A stretch of 11,720 bases of DNA from Deltaproteobacteria bacterium. Its GTDB lineage: Bacteria; Desulfobacterota_B; Binatia; UBA9968. Numbering within the stretch: position 1 is the stretch's first letter; each line of letters opens with the position of its first letter. Location: contig JAUXIP010000029.1 in the NCBI GenBank assembly GCA_030620935.1, positions 1 to 11,720 of the forward strand. The letters run 5' to 3'. The position numbers and the translations under genes were made by a program. A model generated the notes under the pieces. That model was not told the DNA's origin and ran no database searches. It saw nothing but the letters and a program-made list of their open reading frames with translations. Shown here piece by piece: positions 3,726 through 11,720 of this stretch.

Positions 3726-4109
3726 TCACCAGTAACCTATAAGATCGAGCAGAGGAACAAGAAGATACGAGAGAAAAAGTGCCAGTAAAAAGCCACCGGA
3801 AGAGATCCACAAGGTGATCTTATGCAACTTGCCTTTTGTGTGGGGGCCGGCTACCTCGCAGCTACTATCCAATGGACACTCTTTGACTGGCCTGTAGGTG
3901 ACATAAAAAGACAGACCTAAAAGTACAGCCGTAGATAAAAAGATCCATTCCTTGTAGCGGGAAAGTGTAACGAGAAACCCCGCCTGAGCTACAATGGAAG
4001 CCATCACTGAGCCAAACCCTAGCCCTACCAGGGCTATGGGTAGAGCTCAGCAGACCAGAGATACAAGAGAAAAGAACGTGCTTAAAAGGCCGCTGAGTTT
4101 TTCTTTCAT
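3726..4109 (-). CDS. merT: MerT-like mercuric transporter, selenocysteine-containing (Cys-Sec)
   Basis: Read through the TGA at 4049-4047, the frame from the ATG at 4109 gives 127 residues that align end to end with MerT, the inner-membrane Hg(II) importer (about 116 residues). Helix 1 has SLVSLVC(U)ALPIALVGLGF, where MerT has CC followed by LGPLVLxALGF, so C20-U21 match the metal-receiving Cys pair. Helix 2 is WIFLSTAVLLGLSFYVTY. The cytoplasmic loop RPVKECPLDSSC keeps the second Cys-x5-Cys pair (C78, C84), and helix 3 ends at LLVPLLDLIG. GGGAG lies 8 bases before the ATG and 17 bases separate it from the HMA gene upstream. A 7-bp hairpin with a GGU loop follows the TGA. The gene also stops on TGA (3728-3726), so TGA has two meanings in one message. 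Standard gene finding would call only residues 35-127 and lose the key pair. Mercury as substrate rests on family membership. Confidence 0.88.
4020..4036 (-). promoter_or_regulatory. Bacterial SECIS hairpin in merT mRNA
   Basis: In the mRNA, UAGCCCU-GGU-AGGGCUA forms a perfect 7-bp stem with a 3-base GGU apical loop (4029-4027). The stem starts 10 bases after the UGA and the loop lies 18-20 bases after it. This is inside the roughly 16-37 base window known for bacterial SECIS elements, which need G early in the loop for SelB binding. The same bases encode helix 1. Confidence 0.82.
4047..4049 (-). other. In-frame TGA, predicted selenocysteine codon 21 of merT
   Basis: The codons read GTC TGC TGA GCT CTA CCC, giving V-C-U-A-L-P. 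The TGA takes the place of the second Cys of the conserved MerT Cys-Cys pair. The frame stays open and family-like on both sides. Confidence 0.85.
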
Positions 4110-4126
4110 CTGGATCACTCCCTTTT

Positions 4127-4636
4127 TTAAAGGGCTTCTATCGTTTCAACAGTCCAGAGGCGCACCCTGATCCGGTCTGCAGCAATCTTAAGAGAAAGCT
4201 TGAGTTCACTCGCTCTTTTCAAAAGGGCCTCCACTTTTTCGTTTTTTGAAGGCTTTAGGAACATTATCTGATCGTTTCCATCCACTTGAATGGCCAGTTT
4301 CCCTTCCTGCTCGATTAGCTTTCCGTTGACCGTAATCTGGATGTCTTCGAGAGTAAGCCCGCCGTCTTTTACTGCTCGTGCCAGCCTTTCGATATCCAGT
4401 CTGGTTCCCTTTTTCAATGTGACATCGGCCACGCCCCGGTCCAGCCATGCCCTGGCCGATTCCACTCCGGGCACCCGTGACAGGTTCTTTTCCAACGCGC
4501 GCTCGCAGAACTCACAGGTCATGCCAAGGAGGTTAATCCTGATCTTTTGAAAATCGGCGTGAGTCAATTCGGGGGCCATCAAGGTGAGAAACAAGACTGC
4601 CGTAAAGGCACAAAAAGAGGTTCTTTTTCTGTTCAT
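4127..4636 (-). CDS. Periplasmic MerP-like HMA-domain protein with CxxC
   Basis: The 169-residue protein starts with NRKR, a hydrophobic stretch and a THADFQ cleavage region (about 1-28), so it is exported. An HMA (heavy-metal-associated) domain follows, with GMTCEFCERALEKNL (C41 and C44), VPGVESARAWLDRGVADVTL and a final GGLTLEDI. This is the MerP ferredoxin-like fold, which binds Hg(II) or similar ions and passes them to MerT. The 80 or so residues after the HMA domain are an extension absent from classical MerP. They start ITVNGKLIEQEGKLAIQ and are shared with the second HMA protein at 10804-11304. AGGAGG sits 8 bases before the ATG. The Cys-rich small gene lies upstream and merT is 17 bases downstream, so it should feed metal to the Cys-Sec pair of that transporter. 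Confidence 0.85.
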   Translation of the reverse strand: MNRKRTSFCAFTAVLFLTLMAPELTHADFQKIRINLLGMTCEFCERALEKNLSRVPGVESARAWLDRGVADVTLKKGTRLDIERLARAVKDGGLTLEDIQITVNGKLIEQEGKLAIQVDGNDQIMFLKPSKNEKVEALLKRASELKLSLKIAADRIRVRLWTVETIEAL

Positions 4637-4663: not shown

Positions 4664-4801
4664 CTAATTGTTCTGATTCTGGTTCCGATCATCCGTGTCC
4701 CCCTTTGCTTGTTTCTCTTGCTCTTGCGTCTTTTCTTTAGGAGACTCAAGCGTTACCAGATCCTCACAACCGCAGCCGCAATCCCCATTGCCACAAGACA
4801 T
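4664..4801 (-). CDS. Small Cys-rich protein, putative cytoplasmic metal binder
   Basis: A 45-residue gene fills the space between the barrel protein and the HMA protein. It starts ATG at 4801 with GGGGAGG about 8 bases upstream and stops TAG at 4666-4664. The N-terminus is MSCGNGDCGCGCEDL, giving C3, C8, C10 and C12 (C-x4-C-x-C-x-C). The rest is a hydrophilic tail rich in Lys, Glu, Gln and Asn with no further Cys. There is no signal peptide, so it should stay in the cytoplasm. The clustered Cys and its position in a metal operon suggest binding or relaying of the imported ion, as a miniature metallothionein or chaperone. I recognise no family. The good ribosome-binding site and tight spacing (20 bases after the barrel gene) support it being real. 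Confidence 0.72.
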   Translation of the reverse strand: MSCGNGDCGCGCEDLVTLESPKEKTQEQEKQAKGDTDDRNQNQNN

Positions 4802-5819: not shown

Positions 5820-6275
5820 CTATTGGCCCAGAATGTTGAGACCCGGTCGGGACGGCATCGGCCTAGGTGGGATCTCAGAGCAGATGCAAAAGCCTTGGGG
5901 AAGAGGAGTCTTCCTAGATCCCTTTTGTATCTTTTTAAGCTCTTCTCGCAGCAGGCTTAGCTCCCGGAGCTTTCGGTCGATCTCCTCGATCTGGTTATTG
6001 ACCAACTTTTGAAGACGGGGCTTAAGCCTCTGACAGTCACAGCCTTGCCCCTTGAGGGATTCAACGATCTCCTTGATCTGCCAGAGCTTCAAGCCGAGCA
6101 GTTTAGTCCTTTGTACCAGCCTTAGCCGCCTGAGGTCTGTTTCCGTGTAAAGCCTGTAGCCTGAAGAAAAAGTTCTTCCCGGTGATGGTATCAATCCTAT
6201 CTTTTCATAAAAGCGGATGGCCTTAACAGAGAGACCAGTCTCCCTCGCCACTTGCCCTATCTTTAATGCCTTCAT
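5820..6275 (-). CDS. MerR-family metal-responsive regulator
   Basis: The 151-residue protein has the MerR winged helix-turn-helix at its N-terminus (LKIGQVARETGLSVKAIRFY, then SGYRLYTETDLRRLRLV). A dimerisation helix and a Cys-bearing C-terminal loop follow. C79 and C81 (GCDC) stand at the start of the dimerisation helix, and C130 and C132 (FCIC) lie near the end. A Cys at the 79 position is known from sensors of divalent metals (ZntR, MerR), while Cu(I) sensors have Ser there, so Hg, Zn, Cd or Pb is likely. A longer frame from 6323 would place the operator inside the gene. The ATG at 6284 overlaps the -10 box. I choose 6275, which falls at the predicted transcript start and matches family N-termini. 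It sits upstream of the operon it should control, on the same strand. Confidence 0.85.
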   Translation of the reverse strand: MKALKIGQVARETGLSVKAIRFYEKIGLIPSPGRTFSSGYRLYTETDLRRLRLVQRTKLLGLKLWQIKEIVESLKGQGCDCQRLKPRLQKLVNNQIEEIDRKLRELSLLREELKKIQKGSRKTPLPQGFCICSEIPPRPMPSRPGLNILGQ

Positions 6276-6282
6276 GATTTTC

Positions 6283-6314
6283 ATTATAAACTCTCCCCTA
6301 AGCTGGAGAGTCAA
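6283..6314 (-). promoter_or_regulatory. MerR-type autoregulated promoter of the regulator gene
   Basis: On the minus strand there is a -35 TTGACT (6314-6309), a 20-base spacer and a perfect -10 TATAAT (6288-6283). The dyad ACTCTCC/GGAGAGT (7-bp arms) spans the spacer. It shares TTGACTCTCC with the promoter at 5763-5794, so one regulator should bind both. Transcription would begin near 6276, at the regulator's own ATG. Confidence 0.75.
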
Positions 6315-9034: not shown

Positions 9035-9619
9035 TTATTCCGCAAGCAGTTGCTCGAAAAACTCTTTTGCCTCGCTACTGTACCACTCTCTGGAGCCCCT
9101 TACTTTGCCCACGATTTCTCCGCGTTTATTCACAATGACGGTCATCGGAAGCCCCCAGGCTTGGTAACTCTCAGCAACTTTTGCGTCGAAATCCAAAAGG
9201 GCCGTAAATGTTAGCTTATGCCTCTTGAAAAACTCCTTTACATCCTTGGCATCCTCTCGATAGTCAATAGCGAGCACCATCAATCCCTTCGGGCCCAGCT
9301 CTTGATGGAGTTTTTCCATTGTCGGCATCTCCTGGACGCAAGGTGGACACCAGGTGGCCCAGAAGTTCAGAAATATGACTTTCCCTCTCAACGCACTTAG
9401 GCTGACTTGCTTCCCTGAAGGATCGTCGAGGGTAAAATCAGGGGCCAAGATCTTGGTTTCTGGCCTTTCTATTTTCAGCTTCTTGAAAAGATCCTCGCCG
9501 GCGGCGTGCGGCTTGCTTTTGTGAAAAAAACTCTCCGCAATGCTGACAAAGGCAACCAGACACAGAACTAAAAAGAGCAATAATCCCAGACGGGCGTGTT
9601 TGTAGGGGCTAATTTCCAT
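9035..9619 (-). CDS. TlpA/ResA-type membrane-anchored thioredoxin
   Basis: The 194-residue protein has an N-terminal membrane anchor (about 11-30, LGLLLFLVLCLVAFVSIAES) and a periplasmic thioredoxin fold. APDFTLDDPSGKQVSLSALRGK leads to FLNFWATWCPPCVQEMP, whose WCPPC is the redox motif. The cis-Pro loop WGLPMTVIVNKRGEIV follows, then a C-terminal helix. This is the TlpA/ResA group, which reduces disulfides in the periplasm, for example in cytochrome maturation. Next to a Sec-Sec HMA protein and a cytochrome c, it could reduce the diselenide of the carrier or prepare the CxxCH motifs of the cytochrome; both are inference. The AAGGA touches the ATG closely, so the start is moderately sure. Confidence 0.88.
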   Translation of the reverse strand: MEISPYKHARLGLLLFLVLCLVAFVSIAESFFHKSKPHAAGEDLFKKLKIERPETKILAPDFTLDDPSGKQVSLSALRGKVIFLNFWATWCPPCVQEMPTMEKLHQELGPKGLMVLAIDYREDAKDVKEFFKRHKLTFTALLDFDAKVAESYQAWGLPMTVIVNKRGEIVGKVRGSREWYSSEAKEFFEQLLAE

Positions 9620-9723: not shown

Positions 9724-10761
9724 TTAAAACCCAAAAAAGCCTAAGATATTCCCAAAAAGCTTTCCAGCTAATCTCACCGGTGGGAGGCTAGGACGAAAAC
9801 CGAAAGCGGCATAGATCCAGGTGGAGCCAAGACCACCCAATACAGCCGCCCCGTAGATAAGGCCAACGAGCGCGCAGCCCTGTCGCCGACCAAAGGTCTT
9901 CATATAGATCTTGATATCGGATCGATGAATTGCGCTGGCTAAACAGAAGCTGATGATGCCGGGATAACCTAAACCATCTGTTTTGAAAAGCGCATGGATC
10001 ACCGGAAGGTTCCCCACAGGGGATAGGGAAACCGCAACGGATAATACGCCACCAAAGATTGCGTTGGCGAGATCGGAGAGTAGTGTCGCATGTCCGAAGA
10101 CATCGGCGAAGGTAGACCACCACGATTGAAGCCCAGAGGCTAAGATAATCCCTCCCAGCATGATTCCCAAAGCAAGAGACGGAGCAAACCGCTTTATTTC
10201 TTGCCCGATAAATTTAAAGATGGCCAACCAGCCATCGAGAGAAAATAATAACGTCTGCCAGGACGGGAAACTCGGCGGATCGAATAGGGCAGTGTTCTTC
10301 GGCTGTTCTCCTATGGAAGCCCTCGACACTTTTAGCTTAACCCAGCCAAGACTCAGCATTACGAAGCCGATCATGACTAGGGCTCCTAAGAGCTGCCCCG
10401 TGGCGAACTCCGCACCCAGCGAAAGGGCAAAGATAGCCCAGAAATAAATTGTCATGTTGCGGCTTGCAATCAAGAAGACAAGTCCAAGAGACGGCGTGAC
10501 ACCCTGCCTTAACAAATCGTCCATTGAATCCATGCTCTTCTTTCGTCCTGCACTTCCTACGATGCCGAGGCCCACGGCCCGGAAAACTCCCTTCACGCTG
10601 ATCTCGGGATTTGCCCGGATGGCACTCCCCGCCTGGTAACGAAAGCGACAGCTGAGCAAGCCTGCAATTATAAACCCAGGGACCCATACCGTGTAAAAAA
10701 GCGTCATGAACTTGAAGAGTTCCCAGGTAAAAAACCAGGGTTCATGGACAAATTCGCTCAT
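9724..10761 (-). CDS. ArsP_1/DUF318-like membrane permease
   Basis: The 345-residue protein has eight or so membrane segments, among them FMTLFYTVWVPGFIIAGLL, MTIYFWAIFALSLGAEFA, LLGALVMIGFVMLSLGWVKL, SLALGIMLGGIILASGL and ALVGLIYGAAVLGGLGSTW. The order resembles the ArsP_1 (DUF318, YraQ-like) permeases. The motif LSPVGNLPVIHALFKTDGLG near residue 250 sits where those proteins have their conserved Pro/Gly loop. Known members export trivalent organoarsenicals; many are unstudied. Similarity is partial and the usual Cys-containing loop is absent, so the substrate is open. It starts 42 bases after the Sec-Sec HMA protein, taking the place merT has in module A, so it is the likely acceptor or exporter of the ion that protein carries. 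The 104 bases downstream (9620-9723) hold no clear feature. Confidence 0.7.
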   Translation of the reverse strand: MSEFVHEPWFFTWELFKFMTLFYTVWVPGFIIAGLLSCRFRYQAGSAIRANPEISVKGVFRAVGLGIVGSAGRKKSMDSMDDLLRQGVTPSLGLVFLIASRNMTIYFWAIFALSLGAEFATGQLLGALVMIGFVMLSLGWVKLKVSRASIGEQPKNTALFDPPSFPSWQTLLFSLDGWLAIFKFIGQEIKRFAPSLALGIMLGGIILASGLQSWWSTFADVFGHATLLSDLANAIFGGVLSVAVSLSPVGNLPVIHALFKTDGLGYPGIISFCLASAIHRSDIKIYMKTFGRRQGCALVGLIYGAAVLGGLGSTWIYAAFGFRPSLPPVRLAGKLFGNILGFFGF

Positions 10762-10803: not shown

Positions 10804-11304
10804 CTATTTGCTATATTGTTGAATTTCCAAGAAGAGAGGGGACTTTTCTCCAACCACCCTCGCTACTAAACCGACTTCCTTCAACTCCTCACTTTTGAGC
10901 TTTGTGAGCTCTGCGTTTTTCACCAGCGAGAAAATTTGATTCGAACCCATCGGTTGAAAGGAAAGCTGACCGTCCTTTTCCTTCAGTTTTCCTCCCACAG
11001 TGATGAAGATTTCCCTAGGCGTAAAGCCGGCATCCAGGACAGCCTTTCTCAGGACCACTGGCTTCAATTCTGTGTCCGGCTTTAAGTTAAAAGTGGCTTC
11101 TGCCTTCTCAAGACTCACATCAACATTTTCCACGCCTTCCAGGCGCGCCAGGGCCTTATTGACCCCGTAAGCTCATATGGGTCATATCATGCCGTCCACT
11201 TTCATGCTTACTTTCATTCCTTCTGCAGCCAAAAGCGGAGTGAGAAACAGGGCTGAGAGAAGAAGGCCGAGAAAAAAGACCATAGCCTTTTTGTTCGTTC
11301 GCAT
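10804..11304 (-). CDS. Periplasmic MerP-like HMA protein with Sec-x-x-Sec
   Basis: The frame from the ATG at 11304 crosses two TGA codons and gives 166 residues. A signal peptide (KK, then AMVFFLGLLLSALFLTPLLAA) leads into an HMA domain reading MKVDGMI-U-PI-U-AYGVNKALARLEGVENV. Family proteins have GMTCxxC-x4-V-x-KAL-x3-EGV there, so U41 and U44 replace both metal-binding cysteines, and they align with C41 and C44 of the paralogue at 4127-4636. The C-terminal extension (ITVGGKLKEKDGQLSFQ, NQIFSL) is shared with that paralogue. AGGAGG lies 7 bases before this ATG; the ATG at 11307 is only 4 bases away. Twelve bases separate it from the upstream barrel gene. Ordinary gene calling would start at the GTG at 11133 and miss the signal and the metal site. 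Selenocysteine is inferred from sequence. Confidence 0.83.
11141..11167 (-). promoter_or_regulatory. SECIS candidate region in the Sec-Sec HMA message
   Basis: Two hairpins compete downstream of the second UGA. One pairs CGGGGUC with GGCCCUG (11167-11149, two G-U pairs, loop AAUAA). The other pairs AGGC with GCCU (11156-11141) around a loop CCUGGCGC that holds two G, 21-28 bases after the UGA. The second fits the known distance and G-in-loop rule, but its stem is short. Neither is as clear as the merT hairpin. Confidence 0.4.
11173..11175 (-). other. In-frame TGA, predicted selenocysteine 44 of the HMA protein
   Basis: This codon stands at the second Cys of the metal site (CCC ATA TGA GCT). 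The HMA helix AYGVNKAL continues directly after it in frame. Confidence 0.8.
11182..11184 (-). other. In-frame TGA, predicted selenocysteine 41 of the HMA protein
   Basis: This codon stands at the first Cys of the GMxCxxC metal site (GGC ATG ATA TGA). A hairpin TGACCC/GGGTCA starts at this codon and encloses the second TGA, which is not the usual SECIS geometry. Confidence 0.8.
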
Positions 11305-11319
11305 CATGCACCCTCCTTT

Positions 11320-11720
11320 CTAAAAGAGTATTCGAAAACCAAAGAGCACCCGATAGTCCTGATCAAGTTGCTCGCCGTTTGCTCGGTCTAAGACTGGAAA
11401 CTGGAATGACGTTTCCACCAAGGCGTTGTCGAACAAGATGTACTGAATACCTGGGGAGAGGAAGATCGTATCACCCCCTGAGGCACGGACCTTGCTGCTC
11501 CCGCTTTTATTTCGTTCTCGGTGCTCGCCGTTGAACTCCAAGAGGAGATTCAATTGGGCATTTTCGATTGGCCAGCGGGGATAGATCGAGTAAGAGTAGG
11601 CAACATCGTAGTTCAAGGCGGGGCCAAAACGGAATCCGCTGTGACGGGAGTTATATTTAAACTGGACCCCCCCCCTCCACGGCGTGGTAGGCTGAGATCC
11701 AGCCGCCAGCGAATCCAAAG
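11320..11720 (-). CDS. Outer-membrane beta-barrel protein, C-terminal part, module B
   Basis: An open frame enters from the right edge and ends TAG at 11322-11320, leaving about 133 residues. Alternating strands such as NAQLNLLLEFNGEH, DTIFLSPGIQYILF and VETSFQFPVL, and a C-terminal VLFGFRILF ending in Phe, mark an outer-membrane barrel. It is similar to the C-terminus of the module A barrel protein (LELNGEY, LTPGIQ, FGFRSLF), so the two are paralogues. The Met at 11718 is probably internal, with the true start outside the window. The Sec-Sec HMA gene starts 15 bases downstream, repeating the barrel-then-HMA order of module A. Confidence 0.72.
   Translation of the reverse strand, partial: LDSLAAGSQPTTPWRGGVQFKYNSRHSGFRFGPALNYDVAYSYSIYPRWPIENAQLNLLLEFNGEHRERNKSGSSKVRASGGDTIFLSPGIQYILFDNALVETSFQFPVLDRANGEQLDQDYRVLFGFRILF

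Follow-up and report, generated by a model that had tools for sequence, protein, structure and literature searches.

UxxU, MerT, and MerP selenoproteins are of a kind that is already known. In the parts of the papers that are accessible, a UxxU metal-binding protein with two selenocysteine (Sec) residues (NF041115), a C/SxxU MerT selenoprotein, and the CU protein MbdU are listed together (PMC13188914), a UxxU "putative mercuric reductase" is listed along with MerT (PMC9312934), and MerP and a putative mercuric transport protein appear among marine selenoproteins (PMC2398784). Here, we analyzed a gene related to these systems in an 11,720-nucleotide stretch of DNA (the whole of which is called the window). 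The initial annotation had considered its UxxU site rare among selenoproteins, which was too strong, as a UxxU HMA-type family is already present in NCBIfam and in reviews. It had also called the site invisible to ordinary annotation, a claim that has to be dropped for UxxU metal-binding proteins, given that NCBIfam holds both NF041115 and NF045683. The gene at 10804..11307 is nevertheless very probably a selenoprotein, and this reading is strongly supported by an orthologue with the same two TGA codons, a series of Cys and Sec forms among relatives, a constrained hairpin, and SelB and tRNA-Sec in the genome of the orthologue.

The UxxU gene and its relatives

The UxxU gene lies on the minus strand at 10804..11307 and, when TGA is left open, encodes a protein of 167 amino acids in which a signal peptide is followed by an HMA domain and then by a C-terminal domain. 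The frame ends with TAG after 167 codons and is interrupted only twice, by TGA codons at 11182..11184 (residue 42, the first HMA Cys position) and 11173..11175 (residue 45, the second). Thus, the metal motif reads GMIUPIU, with the TGAs on the two Cys of GMxCxxC, and the initial placement of the TGAs exactly on the two cysteines was correct. The frame given initially (10804..11304) was also right, whereas its start was not: the gene begins with ATG-ATG, and the first ATG is one codon further upstream, at 11307. It follows a strong ribosome-binding site, read directly as AAAGGAGG at 11312..11319 on the minus strand, with AAAGGAG as the counterpart before the start of the orthologue. The putative signal peptide covers approximately residues 1 to 28 (11224..11307), as judged by eye from the sequence, and the N terminus has low confidence in the structure model. 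The HMA domain (residues 35 to 95, 11023..11205) has a confidently modeled fold and scores 43.1 bits with Pfam PF00403 against a gathering cut-off of 24.8, and an OB-like C-terminal domain follows (residues 96 to 167, 10807..11022). The signal peptide and ribosome-binding site are intact, as had been claimed. Additionally, the chance that two random in-frame stops would land on both metal codons of 167 is about 7e-5, in agreement with the earlier view that chance nonsense mutations were an unlikely cause. The Cys paralogue said to lie 6 kb away was found at 4127..4636 (minus strand), approximately 6.2 kb distant and beside a MerT-like gene, with 37% identity over 126 amino acids.

An alignment-based scan of genome contigs yielded a single full-length orthologue, L001 (1188-1685), which is 61% identical to the window protein and is the only locus for which double-TGA orthologue DNA was obtained. 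It comes from a metagenome-assembled genome (MAG), G001, named Deltaproteobacteria bacterium and placed in Myxococcota by the tree tool. As in the window gene, its frame is interrupted by two TGA codons and by no other stop, and each TGA aligns with its counterpart in the window. The UxxU gene thus carries conserved in-frame TGA codons aligned with the Cys of its homologues, as is required of a bacterial selenoprotein. To this pair we can add the matches from 292 genomes, drawn as kin of the L001 genome and including it: at an E value of 1e-12, there were 8 matches in 7 genomes, with one UxxU (L001 itself), three CxxU (G006 and two in G182), one UxxC (G122), and three CxxC forms (G047, G250, and G236). 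Each TGA inside the five TGA-bearing matches sits on a metal-binding position. All four states proposed initially for this site (CxxC, UxxC, CxxU, and UxxU) are therefore represented among these 8 matches. Other HMA-type genes were observed separately. A double-HMA protein with CxxU (GMTCSGU) in G182 (contig C281, L059, ~1633) is a further likely selenoprotein, a short HMA protein in G001 (contig C293, L089, ~1525), which has a signal peptide and the UxxU motif GMTUGAU, scores 78.5 bits to NF041115 (cut-off, 95), and an NF041115 match in G173 (C122:1567-1764; 66-67 bits) whose frame holds two TGA codons is possibly another UxxU protein.

The Sec machinery is present in G001, where SelB scores 390 bits (cut-off, 242) and tRNA-Sec scores 76.7 bits (cut-off, 47), although this MAG measures 8.3 Mb and the contigs carrying the two genes could therefore stem from another organism. 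Six further genomes were checked; both components exceeded their cut-offs in G182, G122, G250, and G236, while neither SelB nor tRNA-Sec was found over the curated cut-offs in G006 (CxxU) and G047 (CxxC). The initial annotation had named a genome without selB and tRNA-Sec as evidence against its reading; the genome of the orthologue is not such a genome, while that of the CxxU relative G006 shows neither and is either counter-evidence or an incomplete MAG.

A search of the window UxxU protein against 5.8 billion predicted proteins returned 26 matches, one of which was the window's own fragment; this entry (P0001) and the corresponding one from the search with the CxxC paralogue (P0041) were removed before counting. 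All of the 25 other UxxU homologues were 100 to 118 amino acids long and had been called from downstream of the second TGA position. As the eligible lengths reached approximately 290 amino acids, full-length homologues would have been listed. In the control search with the CxxC paralogue, 11 of the 12 other homologues were full length (166 to 175 amino acids) and one had 121 amino acids. We infer that the 25 shortened homologues also carry TGAs. Gene callers lose the metal-site half of such proteins.

Selection, hairpins, and a second candidate selenoprotein

Selection was estimated from one pair of sequences, the window gene and L001, with the NG86 method. The part before the TGAs (39 codons) had a pN of 0.34 and a pS of 0.55, giving a dN/dS of approximately 0.46, and the pseudogene-like decay that had been named as an argument against the selenoprotein reading is thus absent in this comparison. 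Downstream, the synonymous difference was only 2.0 in 12.3 sites (0.16) over codons 46 to 60, compared with 22.5 of 25.8 sites (0.87) over codons 61 to 96 and 40.0 of 48.0 (0.83) over codons 97 to 167 (Fisher's exact test on rounded counts, p 9e-6). The proposed comparison of synonymous and nonsynonymous change around the TGAs therefore came out in favor of the initial reading, with synonymous change nearly absent from the 15 codons that follow and saturated beyond them. This dip indicates a constraint at the DNA level in the stretch expected to hold a bacterial SECIS.

Downstream of the second TGA, the window gene, L001, L007, L008, and L013 each have two small hairpins. One is a stem-loop with a GGA loop and an 8-bp stem (11130..11148, minus strand), conserved in the five sequences with compensatory changes at three pairs, and the other is an upstream companion (11150..11166, minus strand) with a conserved GGG/CCC core, 83% of cells paired, and no compensatory changes. 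For the GGA-loop hairpin, 87% of the cells in the five sequences were paired versus 40-50% when the partners were slid, and 0 to 27 of 500 shuffles reached the observed value, depending on the measure. The covariation among these five related sequences is supportive of the hairpin, short of proof. Single-sequence folds gave modest z-scores for the five hairpin members (-0.96 to -2.87), and the minimum-energy fold of L008 taken alone differs from the conserved hairpin. For L009, the UxxC member, folding was no more favorable than for its own shuffles (z 0.02), and a different hairpin can be drawn for it. Run over the window and 17 loci, a model built from the five sequences had only one weak match elsewhere, at a CxxC member, and no SECIS family appeared among the Rfam matches. 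The GGA loop starts 33 nucleotides past the second TGA and 42 nucleotides past the first, and the latter distance exceeds the usual SECIS spacing. The GGA-loop hairpin is a likely SECIS element of the UxxU gene.

The MerT-like gene at 3726..4118 (minus strand) is likely to encode a second selenoprotein in the window. It was searched as 3736-4118, minus the last three residues, and scores 30.8 bits with PF02411, just under the cut-off of 32.9. Its sole internal TGA (4047..4049) aligns with the second Cys of the vicinal pair in the LVCCALP motif of its relatives, which gives LVCUALP in the window gene. From this TGA onward, the window sequence can form a strong hairpin whose apical loop is GGU (4008..4049, minus strand); its 69-nucleotide fold has a z-score of -3.93, and it is likely a SECIS element. 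Among 14 MerT-like homologues, the 8 full-length proteins (P0033-P0040) all have CC, and the other 6, of 91 to 93 amino acids, start past the TGA; one of these is 99% identical to the window protein and one is from a Candidatus Binatia MAG. None of the 6 MerT-like matches in the 292 genomes (E 1e-6) had an internal stop, and thus no second CU form was seen at the DNA level.

Neighboring genes, alternative readings, and proposed function

The UxxU gene is followed by an ArsP_1-type permease gene (9724..10761, minus strand; Pfam PF03773, 71 bits) that is 60% identical over 342 amino acids to the downstream neighbor of L001. Upstream is a beta-barrel-like gene, partial at the window edge (11320..11718, minus strand) and 81% identical over 117 amino acids to the upstream neighbor of L001; the latter matches PF13557, whereas the window piece has no Pfam match. 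This gene contains a run of nine C at 11667-11675, and the frame before it does not match the barrel of L001, which makes an indel or an error of assembly likely. Beyond the permease, a TlpA/ResA-like periplasmic thioredoxin with WCPPC (9035..9619, minus strand) is 53% identical to one that shares a contig with the CxxU gene of G006, and a c-type cytochrome is also encoded near the UxxU gene. A MerR-family metal regulator (5820..6284, minus strand), searched from an upstream TTG start, matched CueR best in NCBIfam (84.4 bits; MerR, 67.4), all below the cut-offs. A small Cys-rich open reading frame that begins MSCGNGDCGCGC (4664-4801, minus strand), flanked by a barrel-like gene and the CxxC paralogue, was also observed.

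An ArsP_1-type permease was found within approximately 1 kb of all five hairpin-sharing members (by Pfam for the window, G006, and the two in G182, and by the 60% identity for L001), and in G122 (L064 5483-7462) a barrel-like gene, a UxxC HMA protein, and a MerT-like protein with CC are consecutive. We take both inner-membrane families, ArsP_1-type and MerT-like, to handle thiophilic metals or metalloids, and the carrier thus travels with families of this type across its members. A MerA scoring above the cut-off was present in G122, and none was found in G001, G006, or G182. Flavoproteins resembling MerA but below its cut-off of 454 bits are encoded in G006 (C31:3507-4877, L074; 383 bits), approximately 4.5 kb from the CxxU member, and in G182 (C171:24371-25717, L076; 350 bits), approximately 23.5 kb from a CxxU member.

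These data bear on several other readings of the two TGA codons. That they are nonsense mutations or sequencing errors might be suggested by the apparent frame break at the nine-base C run of the barrel-like gene, as the assembly may carry indel errors, but we rejected this reading as scarcely credible because an independent MAG has the same two TGAs in a gene whose product is 61% identical, and the dN/dS of approximately 0.46 before the TGAs and the intact signal peptide and ribosome-binding site also argue against it. Reassignment of TGA to another amino acid throughout the organism was rejected as equally far-fetched: although TGA terminates only 1 of the 11 long open reading frames of the window in a mechanical count (the others end with TAA or TAG), 13 of the 14 other listed window genes have no internal TGA, the lone TGA of the cytochrome c gene, near its end, reads as a stop, and in the stretches from relatives TGA serves as a normal stop, at 2 of 13 to 3 of 3 gene ends. 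It is also very unlikely that translation stops at the TGAs to give a short regulatory peptide, or that the hairpin is an attenuator, with the downstream part made from an internal start. Gene callers did place the starts of 25 homologues after the TGAs, but conserved signal-peptide and HMA sequence precedes them, the CxxC members read straight through, and the product of an internal start would have neither signal peptide nor metal site.

A further alternative keeps the double selenoprotein but makes the Sec pair a redox center, as a diselenide or selenenylsulfide, rather than a metal site. Known selenoproteins are mostly thiol-type redox proteins, according to the accessible part of PMC9312934, and the TlpA-like thioredoxin and the c-type cytochrome near the UxxU gene would suit such a role. 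However, the fold is that of an HMA metal carrier, the neighbors in relatives are a permease or MerT, and the window itself encodes a CU MerT-like protein, and we therefore regard a redox center as rather improbable.

The reading that we prefer, with a probability of about 70%, is that of a double-Sec periplasmic carrier of soft metals that probably feeds the adjacent ArsP_1-type permease. Both TGAs would be read as Sec to give the UxxU carrier, the signal peptide would direct its export to the periplasm, and a soft metal such as Hg(II) would be gripped between the two selenolates and handed to the permease, while the TlpA-like thioredoxin may keep the Sec pair reduced. A diselenolate metal site in this protein is plausible. 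For the window type, efflux or sequestration would be the preferred direction of transport because the genome of the orthologue yielded no mercuric reductase scoring above the MerA cut-off; import for reduction is the alternative, and it is possible in G006 and G182 given the MerA-like flavoproteins on their CxxU contigs. More tentatively, and with considerable doubt, the UxxU carrier, the membrane-bound CU MerT-like protein, and the ArsP_1 permease might together pass mercury-like metals along a selenium relay, with the permease moving the ion on, and a single SECIS might serve both UGAs, which are nine nucleotides apart. Soft metals such as mercury are bound more tightly by selenolates than by thiolates, and replacing both ligands of a carrier poses the question of how it ever lets the metal go. 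The series of UxxU, CxxU, UxxC, and CxxC forms on one scaffold makes this question directly testable, and the two close UGA codons offer a compact test of service by one likely SECIS.

Comparison with known systems

The best NCBIfam match of the window protein is NF041115 (UxxU_metal_bind), which likewise describes an HMA-type domain with UxxU for CxxC, and in the window protein the two U of this motif, residues 42 and 45, lie at the metal site of the HMA domain. It differs by its additional OB-like C-terminal domain and by its score of 47.9 bits (42.0 for L001), which is below the curated cut-off of 95. The seven members over this cut-off that were seen all have CxxC, with open frames of 114 to 119 amino acids in six and 177 in one. 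Compared with MerP (TIGR02052), the window protein has Sec for Cys, an extra domain, and an ArsP_1 permease instead of MerT beside it; the MerT-like gene is approximately 6.7 kb off, next to the CxxC paralogue, and the score of 38.4 bits is below the curated cut-off of 92.55. Membership of the UxxU protein in either NF041115 or MerP was rejected, as its scores are below both cut-offs.

The MerT/CopZ fusion-like heavy metal transport selenoprotein NF045683 (MerT_CopZ_Se) likewise pairs a Sec-containing MerT with HMA, but as a fusion, whereas the window has separate genes, and its HMA protein scores 29.2 against 375. The selenoprotein MerT (PF02411) is also of the MerT type with Sec, as is likely in the window, and has the motif C/SxxU in the accessible part of PMC13188914; in contrast, the likely Sec of the MerT-like protein in the window is in a vicinal pair (CC to CU). 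This CU motif is common to MbdU (NF045648), the metal-binding double selenoprotein with two Sec residues in the same part of PMC13188914, although NF045648 was absent from the listed NCBIfam matches of both the window UxxU protein (E values up to 0.01) and the MerT-like protein. The literature searches, to which most subscription papers were out of reach, found no paper on the longer UxxU form. This locus differs from the known kind in the longer architecture of the UxxU protein, its scores far below the family cut-offs, its permease context, and the C/U series in its relatives.
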